Positions 1,867 to 16,240 of a DNA stretch of 64,000 nucleotides are shown here, piece after piece. Source of the DNA: Cytophagaceae bacterium. GTDB taxonomy: Bacteria > Bacteroidota > Bacteroidia > Cytophagales > Cytophagaceae. Both the position numbers and the translations under genes were made by a program. The notes beneath the pieces were generated by a model. That model was not told the DNA's origin. It worked only from the letters and a program-made list of their open reading frames with translations, and did not search any database. The first letter of the stretch is position 1, and every line of letters begins with the position of its first letter. The stretch spans positions 1-64,000 of the forward strand of contig JALONM010000009.1 of NCBI GenBank assembly GCA_025454925.1, given 5' to 3'.

Positions 1867-1899
1867 TTGGTATTCGAATACTTTTATCGCTTATATTTG
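1867..1899 (+). promoter_or_regulatory. Bacteroidota-type promoter for the riboswitch operon
   Basis: The -7 box TATATTTG at 1892-1899 matches the Bacteroidota consensus TAnnTTTG exactly. A TTG at 1867-1869 could be the -33 element, although the 22-base spacer is slightly long. The start site expected a few bases beyond 1899 would place the RNA 5' end at the first base pairs of the aptamer, which supports the assignment. Confidence 0.65.
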
Positions 1900-1906
1900 T
1901 TTCGTT

Positions 1907-1986
1907 ATTGCACGGGGTGCTTGATGCAGATCAGGCTGAGAAATACCCGAAACCTGACATGGGTAATGCCAACGTAGGGATGCTGT
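1907..1986 (+). promoter_or_regulatory. TPP riboswitch (THI element)
   Basis: The conserved core of the thiamine pyrophosphate aptamer is present in order: GGGGTGC (1914-1920), CTGAGA (1936-1941), ACCC (1945-1948), a slightly expanded GAAACCTGA (1949-1957), and the block from GGGTAATGCC to CGTAGGGA (1961-1980). ACCC can pair with GGGT at 1961-1964, and GCA at 1910-1912 can close P1 with TGC at 1981-1983. TPP riboswitches bind thiamine pyrophosphate and normally repress thiamine synthesis or uptake genes. This one lies just before a four-gene operon. I see no intrinsic terminator between aptamer and gene, so control is more likely at translation initiation. Confidence 0.95.
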
Positions 1987-1992
1987 CTTAAA

Positions 1993-2070
1993 ATATTCAT
2001 TTTATGCTCCATTCATGTTGGCTATTCCCTGAATGGAATTTTTATTTTATACCAAACATAAAATGAATAT
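1993..2070 (+). promoter_or_regulatory. Start-codon-sequestering hairpin after the TPP aptamer
   Basis: A perfect 14-bp inverted repeat (1993-2006 with 2057-2070) encloses a second perfect 8-bp hairpin (2008-2015 with 2030-2037). The ATG at 2063-2065, the likely start of the methyltransferase, lies inside the right arm of the outer stem. The alternative upstream ATG at 2033 lies inside the inner stem. The structure begins seven bases after the aptamer and is a good candidate for the riboswitch expression platform. How ligand binding would switch it is not evident from the sequence. Confidence 0.6.
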
Positions 2071-2794
2071 CGAAGAGTCCAAAAGCCAACATGGCCTTTT
2101 AATTCCCGCTAGCCGAACCAACTGGCAAAACAGACCAGAGTGGTTTTTTAACCGAGCCCATACCGACACCTACGAAAGCTGGTACGAAGGACGTTACAAG
2201 CGTGCTGAAATCTGGCAGAAGAAAGTAATGGAGCAATTAGTATCAACGGATACACGTTTGAAAACCTTGCTGGAATTTGGATGTGGCACTACCCGTTTTA
2301 CACGCTGGTGGAAAGAAATAGGCATAGAAGCAAGCGGTGGAGACATTTCTCCTCTTATGCTTTCTCAAGCGATCCACTTGTTTGACGGAGACCTGGTAAT
2401 GGCCGATTCTCACCATATGCCCTTCAAAGACCACAGCTTTGATGCGCTTGCGTTCATCACTACGTTTGAATATTACAAGGATCCAGTTCAAGTAATACGG
2501 GAAGCGTCACGTGTAGGAAAATACGGTATTGCTATGGGTATGATGAACCGTAACTCCACAAAAGTACTGCGCAGAAGAGTGCAACAATTTTTTGGTAAGA
2601 ATCCTTTTTATGTGACGGCCACGTTTTACACACCCAATAGGCTGATGCAAGTAATTGATGAGGCCCTGCAAGGCCGCGAATATACCGTGCGCTGGACTTG
2701 CACTGGCTTACCCGCCTGGTTTCCTGTACAACAATGGAGTGTGCCCGTTGGCGACTTCTTCGGTTTGTATATTCAATTTCATGATGTAGATTAA
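2063..2794 (+). CDS. Class I SAM-dependent methyltransferase under TPP riboswitch
   Basis: A 243-residue cytoplasmic protein with a Rossmann-type methyltransferase fold. The SAM-binding motif EFGCGTTRF is near residues 71-79, the acidic end of strand 2 (GGDIS) near 92-96, and a motif-IV-like stretch (DHSFDALAFI) follows. It resembles the broad Methyltransf_11/UbiE-BioC-like group, but I cannot name the substrate. I prefer ATG 2063 to ATG 2033 because the upstream ten residues overlap regulatory hairpins and add no fold element. It is the first gene after the TPP riboswitch and ends two bases before the HypE-like gene. The operon's last gene encodes a Trm112-like protein, a family known to activate methyltransferases, so the two may form a complex; that is inference. 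Confidence 0.85.
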   Translation: MNIEESKSQHGLLIPASRTNWQNRPEWFFNRAHTDTYESWYEGRYKRAEIWQKKVMEQLVSTDTRLKTLLEFGCGTTRFTRWWKEIGIEASGGDISPLMLSQAIHLFDGDLVMADSHHMPFKDHSFDALAFITTFEYYKDPVQVIREASRVGKYGIAMGMMNRNSTKVLRRRVQQFFGKNPFYVTATFYTPNRLMQVIDEALQGREYTVRWTCTGLPAWFPVQQWSVPVGDFFGLYIQFHDVD

Positions 2795-2796
2795 GC

Positions 2797-3846
2797 ATGG
2801 CAGATGTAGTTGGAAAAGTAGGGCATCAATTGGTAGACTCCTTTCTGGCAAACCATTGCGGAGCCACCAGGGAAGAAGTGCGCATTAAACCTCAGTTTGG
2901 CGTGGATGTTTCCCTGGTGGAACTTCCTGGAGGCTTAAGCATGGCACTCACCAGCGATCCATTATCGCTCATTCCTGGAATAGGGCTGGGAGAATCTGCG
3001 TGGCTGTCGGTGCATCTAATGGCCAACGACATGGCCACCACCGGCATAGGTCCTATGTACGCACAAATGGTTTTGAACCTCCCTGCTGAATTAAGTGAAT
3101 CCGATTATAAAACTTATTGGCAATACATAGACCGCTATTGTAGAGATATTGGATTAGCCATCACTGGTGGTCATACTGGATTTATTCCCGATCAACGTTC
3201 CACCATTGCGGGAGGAGGTACCTTTATTTCGATCGCACCATCGGGTTCCTTCTGTTGCAGTACTATGGCTCAAGCAGGAGATCGACTTCTTTTAACAAAA
3301 TACCCGGGCATGTCAAGTGCAGCCTTACTTGCTATGTGTTTTCCGGATACTGTGAAAAAACATTGTGGTCAGGAAATTTACCAATTGGCTTGTGAATCGT
3401 TTTATCAAACCACATCGCTGCCCGATGCACTGGCCGCTGCCTCCCACGCACCTCAGCATGTGCATGCCATGCACGATGTAACAGAGGGTGGTGTAATGGG
3501 AGCTTGCTATGAAATGGCTTGTGCCTCTCAAAAAAAAATTACGTTAGTAGAAGCATGGCTACCTTCCGGAGAAGTGCAGAAAAGTGTTTGCCATGCCTTC
3601 CAACTCGATCCACTCGAGTGCATTGGAGCTGGGTCCATGCTAATTTCCTGTGCCAGCGAAGGATATAAGGACCTCATTCTTCACCTCCAAAATTTAGGCA
3701 TCCCCTGCTTCGAAATTGGATTTGTAGAGACCGGAGAACCCGGTCTGATGTTGCAAAAAAAAGGAGTCCTTACACCCTTACCATACCAAGCCACAGATCC
3801 CTACTGGGCTGCTTTCTTTAAAGCCAAACTATCCGGATGGAAATGA
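2797..3846 (+). CDS. AIR synthase-superfamily protein (HypE/ThiL-like)
   Basis: This 349-residue protein belongs to the PurM/HypE/SelD/ThiL superfamily of ATP-using enzymes. Visible signatures are VHLMANDMATTG at 72-83, AITGGHTG at 121-128 and the HypE-type MHDVTEGGV at 225-233. It is closest in pattern to HypE-like AIR synthase-related proteins. However, it lacks the C-terminal Pro-Arg-Ile-Cys ending that HypE uses to carry the carbamoyl group, and no hydrogenase genes are present, so hydrogenase maturation is unlikely. Its position under a TPP riboswitch, overlapping a ThiE-like gene by ten bases, suggests a role in thiamine synthesis or salvage, perhaps as a kinase or phosphate-transfer enzyme analogous to ThiL. 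That role is inferred from context only. Confidence 0.85.
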   Translation: MADVVGKVGHQLVDSFLANHCGATREEVRIKPQFGVDVSLVELPGGLSMALTSDPLSLIPGIGLGESAWLSVHLMANDMATTGIGPMYAQMVLNLPAELSESDYKTYWQYIDRYCRDIGLAITGGHTGFIPDQRSTIAGGGTFISIAPSGSFCCSTMAQAGDRLLLTKYPGMSSAALLAMCFPDTVKKHCGQEIYQLACESFYQTTSLPDALAAASHAPQHVHAMHDVTEGGVMGACYEMACASQKKITLVEAWLPSGEVQKSVCHAFQLDPLECIGAGSMLISCASEGYKDLILHLQNLGIPCFEIGFVETGEPGLMLQKKGVLTPLPYQATDPYWAAFFKAKLSGWK

Positions 3847-4496
3847 AACAACAAGATCCTCTTTCTTTGCGCAAAGGCATATACCTGATTTTAAATCCGG
3901 CGTTCAGACCTACTTATGTATTGGATGTCCTGCCAGGTTTATTAGAACTAGGACTTGCAGCCATTCAATGCTGGGATCATTTTCCGGAAGAAAAAATAAA
4001 TACTACATGGCTCGAACAGGTTTGTGAAGTAGCTCACCGGTACGACACCCCCGTATTGATTAATAACCGATGGAATTTATTAATGGAAATACCAGCAGAC
4101 GGAGTACATTTTGATACGCTGCCAGAAAACCTCGAAACAATACAACAACAATTAGGGAAAAAATATATTTACGGATTGACCTGCCAAAATAATTTGGATC
4201 AAGTACTTGTGGCTGAAAGAAAAGGGATAGATTATATTTCCTTTTGTTCGCTGTACCCAAGTACCACCAGCAACAGTTGTGAGCGCGTTGAGTTGTCTAC
4301 GTTAAAAAAAATGCGTGCACTCAGCTCTTTACCGTTCTTTCTGGCAGGAGGCATCCGACCACATCATTTAACCGATTTAAATTCCTTTGACCATGCAGGC
4401 ATAGCACTTGTATCCGCCATATGGGAAGCTTCAGACCCTATACAAGCGTTAAAAGAATTTCAACAACAGTTAGCAATTACATCGCATGAAAGCTGA
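3837..4496 (+). CDS. ThiE/TenI-like TIM-barrel protein, altered active site
   Basis: A 219-residue protein with the thiamine phosphate synthase/TenI fold. Family landmarks can be followed: INNR at 75-78 where ThiE has N-D, ADGVHF at 87-92 where ThiE continues with Gly-Gln, YPSTTS at 140-145 where ThiE has FPTxTK, and LAGGI at 169-173. ThiE joins HMP pyrophosphate to thiazole phosphate; TenI is a thiazole tautomerase. The Asp of the ND motif, the Gln after DGVH and the Lys after the Thr pair are all missing, so canonical activity is doubtful. The start overlaps the preceding gene by ten bases; an ATG at 3843 gives a tighter ATGA overlap and is an alternative. The 3' end overlaps the Trm112-like gene by 11 bases, implying translational coupling. 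Confidence 0.8.
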   Translation: MEMKQQDPLSLRKGIYLILNPAFRPTYVLDVLPGLLELGLAAIQCWDHFPEEKINTTWLEQVCEVAHRYDTPVLINNRWNLLMEIPADGVHFDTLPENLETIQQQLGKKYIYGLTCQNNLDQVLVAERKGIDYISFCSLYPSTTSNSCERVELSTLKKMRALSSLPFFLAGGIRPHHLTDLNSFDHAGIALVSAIWEASDPIQALKEFQQQLAITSHES

Positions 4497-4761
4497 AACT
4501 ATTAAAAAACTTTGCTGCCCCTTTGATAAGGCGGAGCTAAGTCTGACCGTTATTACCACCGACTTGAATGGATCAATCCTGGAAGGCTTTTTAGTATGCC
4601 AGGAATGCAAACGTATTTACCCTATTATCAAAGGTGTTCCCATTATGAATCCGGATGAATACAGAGAGTTTGAATTGGAAAAACCCATATTGGATCAATG
4701 GAATAAATACCTTGAAAATAAAACCATTGAAAATTTCAAACTCAGAGAACTAAATTCTTAA
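4486..4761 (+). CDS. Trm112-like small zinc-ribbon protein
   Basis: A 91-residue protein of the Trm112/UPF0434 type. It has an N-terminal Cys pair (Cys10, Cys11), a CQEC knuckle (Cys38, Cys41) and the typical YPIIKGVPIM segment at about 45-54. Trm112 proteins bind and stabilise class I methyltransferases, while bacterial UPF0434 members are mostly uncharacterised. It is the last gene of the riboswitch operon, overlapping the ThiE-like gene by 11 bases. The operon's first gene is a class I methyltransferase, so partnership is a reasonable inference. About 30 residues after the zinc knuckle (EYREFELEKPILDQWNKYL) are charged and probably helical. Confidence 0.82.
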   Translation: MKAETIKKLCCPFDKAELSLTVITTDLNGSILEGFLVCQECKRIYPIIKGVPIMNPDEYREFELEKPILDQWNKYLENKTIENFKLRELNS

Positions 4762-4810: not shown

Positions 4811-5794
4811 CTACGATTCCACAAATTTTCCATGAACATTGGTGCACGGACAATCTAAACAATAACTTGCTTTCTCAAGTGCTCGTTTTTGAGAAAACTG
4901 TAAGGGAAGTTGATCCATGTCCAGGGACGTTTGCAAGCGTTCGATCTTGTGTCCATATTCTTGGCAGGTATAAGGGCAAGGTGCCATGCGACCTTCTACA
5001 TCCACGAAAAAATAAGATCGACCAGGATAGCATTCCTCTACTGGAATTTTCTGATCGGTTGCAGAAGCATAAAACCGGCGATAGTAGGCATCATTGAACA
5101 CAAGAGGTAAGAGAGGATATGCCTTGCGAAGTTCCTGCACCATCGCTGGCAATTTCTTGACTTGCTCCTGCAACAAACGATTTTCAGGATAAAATTCAGG
5201 ACGATCCCTTCCGCCCAATTGATTGATGGTTACTTCTTGTATTCCCCATTGATGAAGTTCCTGACATAACAACGGAAACATTTCAAAATTAGAGCGCATC
5301 AACACCACATTGACGCGAATGCGTAATCGAGGAGCCTCGTTTCTAAGCAATGCCAATGTATGTTTCAGGAAATCAAATAACCCTTTTCGTCCGCGCATTT
5401 CATCATGAAAAGATGCCAAGCCATCAATACTGAGTGTCAGCTCATAGAAATGTTCGGCTATTTGCTTTCGAACAAATGATTCCTGCAAGGGAGTACCATT
5501 GGTAGTTCCACTGAAATAAAGAGGATAGGTAGCACGGGCTGACTCTGTCCATTGCATTACTTCCTTTTGCCAAAACGGTTCGCCTCCTAACCAACTAATC
5601 AGCACGTGCTTTTGATGCTGCATAGCCCATAGTCCCAAACTATCTATCAGACGATTAACATGAGCCTGGTCAATATTTTTTCGTTTTATTTTTAGGCGGT
5701 GATCATATGCGCAAAAAGGACAACTTAAATTGCAGAGGGTAGTTGTTTCTACCACTACAACTTTATCAAATACAATAGGATGAGCAGGAATCAT
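4811..5794 (-). CDS. Radical SAM protein with SPASM-like C-terminus
   Basis: A 327-residue protein. The [4Fe-4S] radical SAM motif CxxxCxxC is at Cys21, Cys25 and Cys28. A WLGGEPFWQ segment near residue 70 is the family's GGEP motif. The C-terminal third has a further Cys cluster (ECYPGRSYF, APCPYTC, YCLDCPC), consistent with a SPASM or twitch domain holding an auxiliary Fe-S cluster. Such proteins modify peptides, mature enzymes or act on small molecules; no peptide substrate gene is visible beside it. It converges on the TPP-regulated operon with 49 bases between, so a link to that pathway is possible but not shown. It starts at ATG 5792-5794. Confidence 0.85.
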   Translation of the reverse strand: MIPAHPIVFDKVVVVETTTLCNLSCPFCAYDHRLKIKRKNIDQAHVNRLIDSLGLWAMQHQKHVLISWLGGEPFWQKEVMQWTESARATYPLYFSGTTNGTPLQESFVRKQIAEHFYELTLSIDGLASFHDEMRGRKGLFDFLKHTLALLRNEAPRLRIRVNVVLMRSNFEMFPLLCQELHQWGIQEVTINQLGGRDRPEFYPENRLLQEQVKKLPAMVQELRKAYPLLPLVFNDAYYRRFYASATDQKIPVEECYPGRSYFFVDVEGRMAPCPYTCQEYGHKIERLQTSLDMDQLPLQFSQKRALEKASYCLDCPCTNVHGKFVES

Positions 5795-14371: not shown

Positions 14372-16240
14372 TTGAGAGCTTATTTTGTATTTTTACTAAA
14401 ACTTTGGATATTCTGGTTTGTTATTTTTCATCTTAACAGAATTTTGTTTTATGCTTCCGTCTGGCATCTTTTGAATGATGCTCCTATGGAATGGGTAATA
14501 TCGAGTTTTTATTATTCATTCCGGCTTGATTTATCCACTGCTGGATATTTTACAGTCGGATCCTTGATATTAACAAGCATATACCTGGTGTATCCCAACC
14601 TCAAACTTTTAAAAGCTGAGAAATACGCAACATGGTTTATTCTACTAATTTTTCAAATGATTGTACTGGGTGAATGCGGACTATACCGGGAATGGAAAGC
14701 TAAGTTGAATATTCAGGCACTCTCCCACTTTATTAATCCTGCCGAGGTGTTCAGAACGGCTTCAGGCCCATTAACTGTTTTCTTTTTGAGTGGTACCATA
14801 TTCACTGTATTCTTCTTTGGGTGGGCATATTCACGTTGGTTTTCTGCGGAAAAAACCTTTAAAAATATCTCCATTCAAATTTCATGGAAAAAATCGATTC
14901 CCACGTTCCTGATACTCGCAGCAGCATGGGTAATCAGTATACGAGGTGGCCTGCAGCAAATCCCTATCCAGAACAGTGATCCCTATTTCTGCTCCAATCA
15001 ACTCGTGAATGACGCAGCCGTAAACCCTTTTTGGAACCTAGCTTTCGAAGCGGTCTACTTTGCATACAATGAAAAAGTTAATCCTTATCAGTTTTATTCT
15101 AATGACGAATTAAAAACAATATATGAGGACCTTTATCAAATAGAGAAAGACACAAGTGTTTCAATTCTAAAAATAAAGAAACCTAATTTGGTGTTTTTAA
15201 TTCTGGAAAGTTGGAGTGCAAATTGCGTGAAAGCTTACGGTGGAGACGACTATGCACCATTTCTTGATAGTTTAAGTCATACGGGAATACGATTTACCAA
15301 TTTCTACCCGGCAGGATATGTTTCTGACCAAGGGATTTCGGCCTTGCTTAGCGGCTGTGCTGCGGCTCCCAGAGTAGCTTTGATCAATCAAAATTCCAAA
15401 CTTAAGGGAATTCCATGCATCAATCAGGATTTAAAAAAATCAGGTTACAGCAGCGGATTCGTTTTTGGAGGTGACCTCAATTATGGCAATCTAAGAAGCT
15501 ACTTATTTAACAAAGGATGGGAGCGTGTTGTAGAGGAAAAAGACTTATCCAACGCCGAGCAACAAGGATCCCTAGGCATTCACGATGGGTACATGGCTCA
15601 AGTTTTTTTAAAAGAACTTAACATTGCCAAGGCTCCATTTGTGTATTCGTGGTTTACTGTAAGTACTCACATTCCTTATGATTTCCCTGGAGAAAAGAAA
15701 AACTTAACTGAGCTGGAGAATAATTACACCAATGCTATCCAATATTCCGATAATGCCCTTCGCTCATTCTTTGATCAGGCTAAACGCCAAGGCTGGTACG
15801 ACTCTACGTTGTTTATCATTTGTGCAGACCATAGCCATGGCTCACACAAAGACCACAATCCTTGTACTCCGGAATACAACCAGATTCCATTTTGTTTGTT
15901 TGGGGAAGTAATCAAAGAAGAATTCCGTGACAAAGAAATAAAAGATCCTTTTTCACAATTAGATATCCCTTACACGCTGCTAAAACAACTAGGACTTCAT
16001 AAGGAAGCCAAATCATATGTTTGGAGTAAGGATATCTTCAATCCTTACTCCAAAAAATTTGCTCTATTTTGCACATTTAACACGGTAGGCTGGATGGAAA
16101 ATCAAAGTTACCTAACGTATAATTTTTCAAACAATAACTGTCCTATTGCCGACGTAAAAGATTCTGCTGAATATTACCAAATGAAGAAACATATGTTTGG
16201 ATTACAACAAATCACCTTTGAGGATTATTTGCGCCGGTAG
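14372..16240 (+). CDS. LtaS-like membrane sulfatase-fold enzyme
   Basis: A 622-residue protein: about five N-terminal membrane segments (residues 1-200) and an extracytoplasmic alkaline-phosphatase/sulfatase-like domain (about 265-600). The metal-site entry is NLVFLILESW near 270-280, the putative nucleophile region is YVSDQGISALLSG near 318-330, and the late metal motif is CADHSHGSHKDH near 485-497. LtaS-type enzymes move phosphoglycerol or phosphoethanolamine groups onto envelope polymers. The Bacteroidota relatives usually read T-D in the nucleophile motif, and here it is S-D, so Ser may serve instead. No ATG exists between the upstream in-frame stop (14348) and the first membrane helix, so TTG 14372 is the likely start. 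It converges with the GH88 gene, with eight bases between. Confidence 0.85.
   Translation: MRAYFVFLLKLWIFWFVIFHLNRILFYASVWHLLNDAPMEWVISSFYYSFRLDLSTAGYFTVGSLILTSIYLVYPNLKLLKAEKYATWFILLIFQMIVLGECGLYREWKAKLNIQALSHFINPAEVFRTASGPLTVFFLSGTIFTVFFFGWAYSRWFSAEKTFKNISIQISWKKSIPTFLILAAAWVISIRGGLQQIPIQNSDPYFCSNQLVNDAAVNPFWNLAFEAVYFAYNEKVNPYQFYSNDELKTIYEDLYQIEKDTSVSILKIKKPNLVFLILESWSANCVKAYGGDDYAPFLDSLSHTGIRFTNFYPAGYVSDQGISALLSGCAAAPRVALINQNSKLKGIPCINQDLKKSGYSSGFVFGGDLNYGNLRSYLFNKGWERVVEEKDLSNAEQQGSLGIHDGYMAQVFLKELNIAKAPFVYSWFTVSTHIPYDFPGEKKNLTELENNYTNAIQYSDNALRSFFDQAKRQGWYDSTLFIICADHSHGSHKDHNPCTPEYNQIPFCLFGEVIKEEFRDKEIKDPFSQLDIPYTLLKQLGLHKEAKSYVWSKDIFNPYSKKFALFCTFNTVGWMENQSYLTYNFSNNNCPIADVKDSAEYYQMKKHMFGLQQITFEDYLRR

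Follow-up and report, generated by a model that had tools for sequence, protein, structure and literature searches.

The 64,000-nucleotide stretch analysed here (the window; positions 1 to 64,000 of contig JALONM010000009.1 from a Cytophagaceae bacterium) contains near its start a thiamine pyrophosphate (TPP) riboswitch followed by an operon of four genes. These genes, together referred to as the cassette, encode a methyltransferase that depends on S-adenosylmethionine (SAM), a protein of the AIRS superfamily related to HypE and ThiL, a relative of ThiE and TenI, and a Trm112-like protein (Table 1). A gap of 2 bases separates the first two genes, and the following junctions are overlaps of 10 and 11 bases.

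Table 1. Features of the cassette and its leader in the window (aa, amino acids).
Feature	Position	Strand	Basis and remarks
TPP riboswitch aptamer (RF00059)	1903-1997	+	cmscan 62.2 bits against a gathering threshold of 54.3; full-length model match
Probable expression platform acting on transcription (hairpin resembling a terminator, then a T-rich tail)	2008-2046 (hairpin about 2008-2037)	+	
Class I SAM-dependent methyltransferase, 243 aa	2063-2794	+	Methyltransf_11 E 2.8e-16; frame open from 2033
ATP-dependent member of the AIRS superfamily, intermediate between HypE and ThiL, 349 aa	2797-3846	+	AIRS and AIRS_C
ThiE/TenI-like TIM barrel, 217-219 aa	3837-4496	+	TMP-TENI E 5.8e-28; internal ATG at 3843 also possible
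Trm112-like zinc-knuckle protein, 91 aa	4486-4761	+	Trm112p E 6.2e-9; NCBIfam Trm112_arch E 1.8e-15

The matches to Methyltransf_11, AIRS and AIRS_C, TMP-TENI and Trm112p all lie above the curated Pfam cut-offs, and the scores for thiE, thiL, hypE and selD fall far short of the respective NCBIfam equivalog cut-offs. The first-pass annotation, made from the sequence alone, had described a TPP aptamer and behind it a compact operon with no standard thiamine gene in intact form; the RF00059 score, the open reading frame (ORF) coordinates and the missed thiE and thiL cut-offs agree with it on all three points. A radical SAM/SPASM-type gene at 4811-5794 on the minus strand was rejected as a member of the system, being convergent and not conserved beside other cassettes. 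Assignment to a defence system was also rejected, the defence library having given only a weak match to the methyltransferase domain.

The riboswitch upstream of the cassette is the only TPP riboswitch that an Rfam search of the whole window detected (E 8.6e-10). Elsewhere in the window, a weak match to a riboswitch model at 14646-14719 on the plus strand (15.8 bits, E 0.43) is most likely due to chance. Between the aptamer and the first start codon lies a hairpin with the arms TCCATTCA and TGAATGGA, followed by the T-rich ATTTTTATTTT. This hairpin is only moderately stable (-9.3 kcal/mol, z -1.56); its counterparts in the leaders of relatives form strongly (z -3.4 and -6.5). A simple terminator scan, limited to loops of 3-8, did not list the window hairpin, whose loop is larger. 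Among 38 sampled leaders, 28 have a terminator-like hairpin 3' of the riboswitch, against 3.6 expected from shuffles. The cassette is likely, as judged from its leaders, to be controlled through transcription termination.

We used two sets of relatives to assess the conservation of the cassette. A first sample of 98 relatives, searched with the HypE/ThiL-like protein, yielded five strong matches including the window; the four further loci have the same gene neighbours (in one of them the contig breaks off behind gene two), with a riboswitch in three. A scan of GTDB genomes with an alignment of the methyltransferase provided the second set, in which the best 80 of 225 relatives were kept. Profile searches recovered all members of the cassette, in unchanged order and on one strand, in every complete locus (about 90), the gaps in this order being contig ends and four loci where a non-overlap rule dropped the ThiE-like ORF despite its profile match. 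A chance origin of the arrangement is excluded because the cassette is conserved in about 90 other loci. Beyond its four members, no neighbouring gene is conserved in more than 11 loci.

The riboswitch is nearly as constant. Our own riboswitch model, R1, which was used to scan loci L019-L098 and L219-L229, found one copy directly 5' of the methyltransferase gene in 80/80 named loci (E 2e-18 or better), and a riboswitch also precedes the cassette in the window, in L016 and in 11/11 loci from an even draw of genomes across the phylum. The sole exception is L018 (2487-6602), where a dihydroorotase gene lies 24 bases 5' of the cassette and the searches gave no riboswitch. Thus, the question raised in the first-pass annotation, whether this four-gene order recurs across Bacteroidota and always follows a TPP riboswitch, can be answered in the affirmative with this one exception.

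Cassette hosts belong to the Cytophagales, Flavobacteriales, Sphingobacteriales, Chitinophagales and Bacteroidales, and to a family outside the class of the window. The even draw comprised 395 genomes of the phylum, of which 13 carry the methyltransferase (9 of 171 genera); nine of these 13 fall in one family outside the window's class, and all 11 loci fetched from the draw carry the four genes together with the riboswitch. In a tree of three concatenated cassette proteins from 70 loci, with orders assigned from genus names, the order label changes 17 times where a minimum of 3 would suffice (shuffled labels give a mean of 34). The cassette has therefore been transferred horizontally, and as a whole. 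Searches of viral contigs and plasmids gave no relative of the methyltransferase. Seven loci of our set come from Arenibacter, in which two genomes hold the cassette twice (L032/L047 and L037/L044).

This patchy, horizontally spread distribution would suit a system that makes, or protects against, a thiamine-like antivitamin, that is, a methylated or otherwise altered analogue. Paralogues of the last two thiamine enzymes adjoin a methyltransferase in the cassette, and the best-known vitamin B1 antivitamin cluster, that of bacimethrin, likewise uses a methyltransferase. However, control by TPP suits supply better than attack, no exporter or thiaminase is conserved beside the cassette in the loci surveyed, and the cassette itself includes no pyrimidine-making enzyme. 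We regard an antivitamin role as quite unlikely.

We compared the thiamine genes of 31 cassette genomes with those of 27 relatives without the cassette. A real ThiG (E below 1e-100) is present in 3 of the former and 13 of the latter, and ThiC occurs in the same three and the same 13 genomes (Fisher p 0.0014). The even draw gives the same picture, with ThiC in none of the 13 cassette genomes against 138 of the 382 others (p 0.005). Both counts treat species as independent, although they are not. Matches to ThiG of 20-35 bits in many genomes are partial matches to other barrels and were not counted. Among the cassette genomes, canonical ThiE is present only in the three that retain ThiC, and in nearly all the others the cassette's own protein is the only protein of the ThiE type. 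By contrast with the rarity of thiC and thiG, whose possible absence from such genomes the first-pass annotation had proposed to check, thiL, which it had listed with them, is not lacking, since ThiL scores above its cut-off in 58/58 genomes. The genome of the window conforms to this pattern in having ThiL and no ThiC, real ThiG, canonical ThiE or detected thiamine pyrophosphokinase (TPK). In genomes with the cassette a TonB receptor is under TPP control, and PnuT is often present as well.

The occurrence of the cassette where thiC, thiG and thiE are missing, under TPP riboswitch control as in biosynthetic operons, could indicate a complete alternative biosynthesis of thiamine, or of its thiazole, that renders hosts prototrophic without ThiC and ThiG. 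We consider this improbable. To make both moieties and couple them would be much for only four proteins, the ThiE-like protein cannot use hydroxymethylpyrimidine (HMP) diphosphate by the known route, and the hosts keep TPP-controlled uptake receptors. Two published observations also argue against a full biosynthetic route: an isolate of Arenibacter, a genus that bears the cassette, was shown by measurement to be auxotrophic for thiamine, its half-saturation constant (Ks) being about 0.17 nM (PMC12448291), and thiC and thiG are present in all thiamine-prototrophic Arabidopsis leaf isolates studied (PMC9666465).

A TPP-controlled flavin monooxygenase of the acyl-CoA-dehydrogenase fold, in many cases located 3' of PnuT, is present in 14 of the 31 cassette genomes and in 3 of the 27 others (one of them broken; p 0.008), and may act in the same process as the cassette. 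A TPP riboswitch lies 5' of PnuT together with the flavin monooxygenase in L135, L138, L147, L150, L155, L158, L160 and L162. The only other TPP riboswitch in the genome of the window (L014:4392-7850, contig C37) precedes a TonB-dependent receptor and an NMT1/THI5-like protein of 297 aa whose start has no obvious signal peptide; a similar pair is present in G059 (L174). This NMT1/THI5-like gene was rejected as an obligate partner, being behind the other riboswitch here but not in most cassette genomes. In Parapedobacter, a TPP riboswitch and a terminator-like hairpin lie 5' of an apparent NAD(P)HX repair gene (L132:540-2270), a link that may be accidental.

The ThiE-like protein combines a ThiE fold with a rebuilt active site. 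The best folds in the PDB for its predicted structure (pLDDT, the model confidence score, 92.8) are the thiamin phosphate synthases 1XI3 and 2TPS, and it shares the TIM barrel of Bacillus subtilis ThiE (2TPS/1G4T; Foldseek E 6.4e-14 to 2TPS), although it reaches only 96.5 bits against the TIGR00693 equivalog cut-off of 145.1. Among 81 family members, the B. subtilis positions R59, K61 and D93 are replaced in every sequence (by W, N/H and N, respectively), and the positions of D112 and K159 are mostly P and mostly A/S, the ancestral residue not being among those listed. The losses seen in the window protein by the first-pass annotation (the Asp of N-D, the Gln of GVHxGQ and the Lys of TxTK) are family-wide. 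Q57, N92, S130 (as T), G188 and S209 are kept, and W44, D91, C135 and C146 (in 217-residue numbering) are invariant positions specific to the family. We take the lost positions to be those that bind diphosphate and magnesium in the B. subtilis enzyme, and the kept ones to face the pyrimidine and the thiazole phosphate.

The same fold is shared with the thiazole tautomerase TenI (1YAD, 3QH2), which also has no diphosphate-binding set and keeps GGI and S on the phosphate side. TenI differs, however, in giving a weaker sequence match (E 7.1e-12 across half of the ThiE-like protein) and in having as its partner ThiG, which is absent from the cassette genomes in question. H132 of B. subtilis ThiE, which aligns to what is presumably the catalytic His of TenI behind the S/T-x motif, is replaced in the family by N/G/T/S/Q.

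The second protein is similarly related to known enzymes without matching any of them. Its AlphaFold model (pLDDT 93.2) has the AIRS fold and is closest in the PDB to HypE (2I6R, 3WJP; E 5e-24), with which it shares the N-D and D-x-T-x-G-G motifs, and then to ThiL. HypE differs in having a C-terminal Cys, the carrier of its carbamoyl/cyano group, which, as the first-pass annotation had remarked, is missing here (the protein ends ...AFFKAKLSGWK and scores 55.8 bits against a cut-off of 251.6), and the cassette gene has no conserved hydrogenase neighbours. SelD is not matched either (48.7 bits against 125; no C/U-x-x-K in the N-terminus). ThiL (TIGR01379; 3C9T) has the fold in common and aligns end to end with the protein in profile comparison, which sets the W-x-x-F tail of one onto that of the other; this shared tail is no more than suggestive. 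In the window protein, the ThiL motifs GDD, GGDT and GGEDYE read GVD, GGHT and GAGSM, the score is 67.7 bits against 184.15, and a genuine ThiL is also present separately in every genome tested.

The alignment with ThiL along its whole length, tail included, makes a simple kinase role conceivable for the HypE/ThiL-like protein, in which it would phosphorylate imported thiamine to thiamine monophosphate for ThiL to finish and so replace a missing kinase or pyrophosphokinase step. TPK (Pfam PF04263) was found in 11 of the 58 genomes, of which 6 are among the 31 with the cassette, and ThiL is in all; a further TPK-like family is present in 27 of the 58, partly with its active-site motif lost. However, several genomes that have neither the cassette, ThiC nor TPK live with ThiL alone, so another kinase must exist; moreover, the ThiL motifs are changed, and the methyltransferase, the Trm112-like and the ThiE-like proteins would be left without a role. 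We therefore think such a replacement unlikely. A candidate for the missing thiamine kinase occurs at L153, where a TPP-riboswitch PnuT is followed by a NadR-like AAA_28 kinase. The TPK-related Bacteroidota family starts with MSSHH (L194-L212), and several of its members, which are without GDFD, may be pseudoenzymes; ThiL is kept in genomes with this family that have no known source of thiamine monophosphate. A DUF6687 protein lies directly 3' of a TPP-controlled TonB receptor in L152, L159 and L180, with a TPK-like protein next in two of them.

The methyltransferase is under exceptional constraint because it is 65-80% identical to its counterparts in four relatives of the same order, whereas the ThiE-like protein is 30-38% identical in the same relatives. 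Across 82 sequences, 134 of its positions are identical in at least 97%, and the class I motifs are conserved (motif I E-F-G-C-G-T and the acidic motif II G-G-D-I-S). The Trm112-like protein carries C11-P-F-D14, 23 residues and C38-X2-C41, in agreement with the Trm112 zinc-knuckle signature [C/D]PX[C/D]X19-36CX2C (PMC5372719), and in a fold search it matched archaeal Trm112 structures. It shares this signature, and a place beside a class I methyltransferase, with Trm112/UPF0434 methyltransferase activators, from which it differs by about 30 extra C-terminal residues and a thiamine-controlled operon. Genetic linkage indicates that it is probably the partner of the methyltransferase.

Bacterial Trm112 proteins have been described as being of unknown function, and the translation apparatus is the target of those Trm112 partners that are known (PMC5372719). 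The methyltransferase and Trm112-like protein could accordingly modify RNA or protein, with a link to thiamine that is regulatory only, and the methyltransferase profile does weakly match Bud23, a Trm112 partner. Yet in complete loci the pair is never seen apart from the genes for the ThiE-like and HypE/ThiL-like proteins, for which a pair that modifies RNA would have no need. We judge this explanation very improbable.

We favour instead the reading that the four genes form one TPP-repressed module with which thiamine auxotrophs remodel a thiamine-phosphate-like compound for ThiL, and we give it an even chance of being right. Salvage or remodelling is suggested by TPP control, by spread as a unit, by the rarity of de novo synthesis among the hosts, and by the retention of ThiL and of TPP-controlled receptors. 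At low TPP, the riboswitch would allow transcription of all four genes, whose products would bring an imported or damaged thiamine-related compound into a form that the host's ThiL finishes to TPP. The ThiE-like barrel would bind a ligand containing both a pyrimidine and a thiazole phosphate; it would carry out no displacement of diphosphate, because the R59, K61, D93, D112 and K159 positions are changed, and would probably work through the new invariant W44, D91, C135 and C146. On the same ligand, the HypE/ThiL-like protein would supply an ATP-driven step, and the methyltransferase, probably in complex with the Trm112-like protein, a SAM-dependent one. Thiamine monophosphate is bound by both ThiE and ThiL, the two thiamine enzymes to which the cassette is most closely related, and a compound like it is therefore the most likely shared substrate. 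Moreover, with canonical ThiE missing, separate HMP and hydroxyethylthiazole could not be joined in the known way, which favours as substrate a compound already similar to thiamine phosphate. The first-pass annotation had suggested an undescribed route of thiamine salvage or modification and had conjectured that it might handle a methylated or damaged precursor. A thiamine-linked system without canonical thiamine enzymes, and a preference for salvage or conversion over synthesis, stand; an absence of thiL, which it had proposed to check, is not part of the pattern.

Several points weigh against this remodelling role. Many genomes that lack thiC manage without the cassette, which is thus not a general answer to auxotrophy, and three cassette genomes keep the full thiamine pathway as well. 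Absence calls for many hosts rest on draft genomes, and the link to the auxotrophic Arenibacter isolate is at the level of the genus. Finally, the roles we assign to the ThiE positions are carried over from the B. subtilis enzyme, and we infer the chemistry of the cassette from its genes.

Many bacteria of water and soil, where thiamine is scarce, are unable to make it. A TPP-controlled marker of auxotrophs that spreads as a unit points to an environmental B1-related compound outside current models. Tentatively, and holding it to be rather more probably wrong than right, we propose that a compound like thiamine monophosphate, outside the range of the known salvage enzymes, is acted on successively by the methyltransferase together with Trm112, by the HypE/ThiL-like ATPase and by a barrel that derives from ThiE but has no diphosphate chemistry, and that a riboswitch-bearing cassette spreads this new thiamine chemistry in Bacteroidota. 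If true, a bacterial Trm112 protein would thereby gain a role in metabolism. Two of the proteins are singled out by these results: the relative of ThiE, whose active site is rebuilt, and the Trm112-like protein, for which the methyltransferase is an obvious partner.

The gene set is not described in the open-access literature searched, although a description elsewhere is possible. Neither outcome that the first-pass annotation had regarded as fatal to its proposal was encountered: the genes are co-conserved with the riboswitch, and no described system of the same composition was found. Beyond superfamily folds, no known thiamine module shares the enzymes of the cassette, and the salvage modules ThiM-ThiD-ThiE-TenA, PnuT-Tnr3 and OMthi accordingly differ from it in every catalytic component. 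What they have in common with it is TPP-riboswitch control and presence in auxotrophs, and as far as regulation goes the cassette is of a familiar type, that of the TPP regulon.

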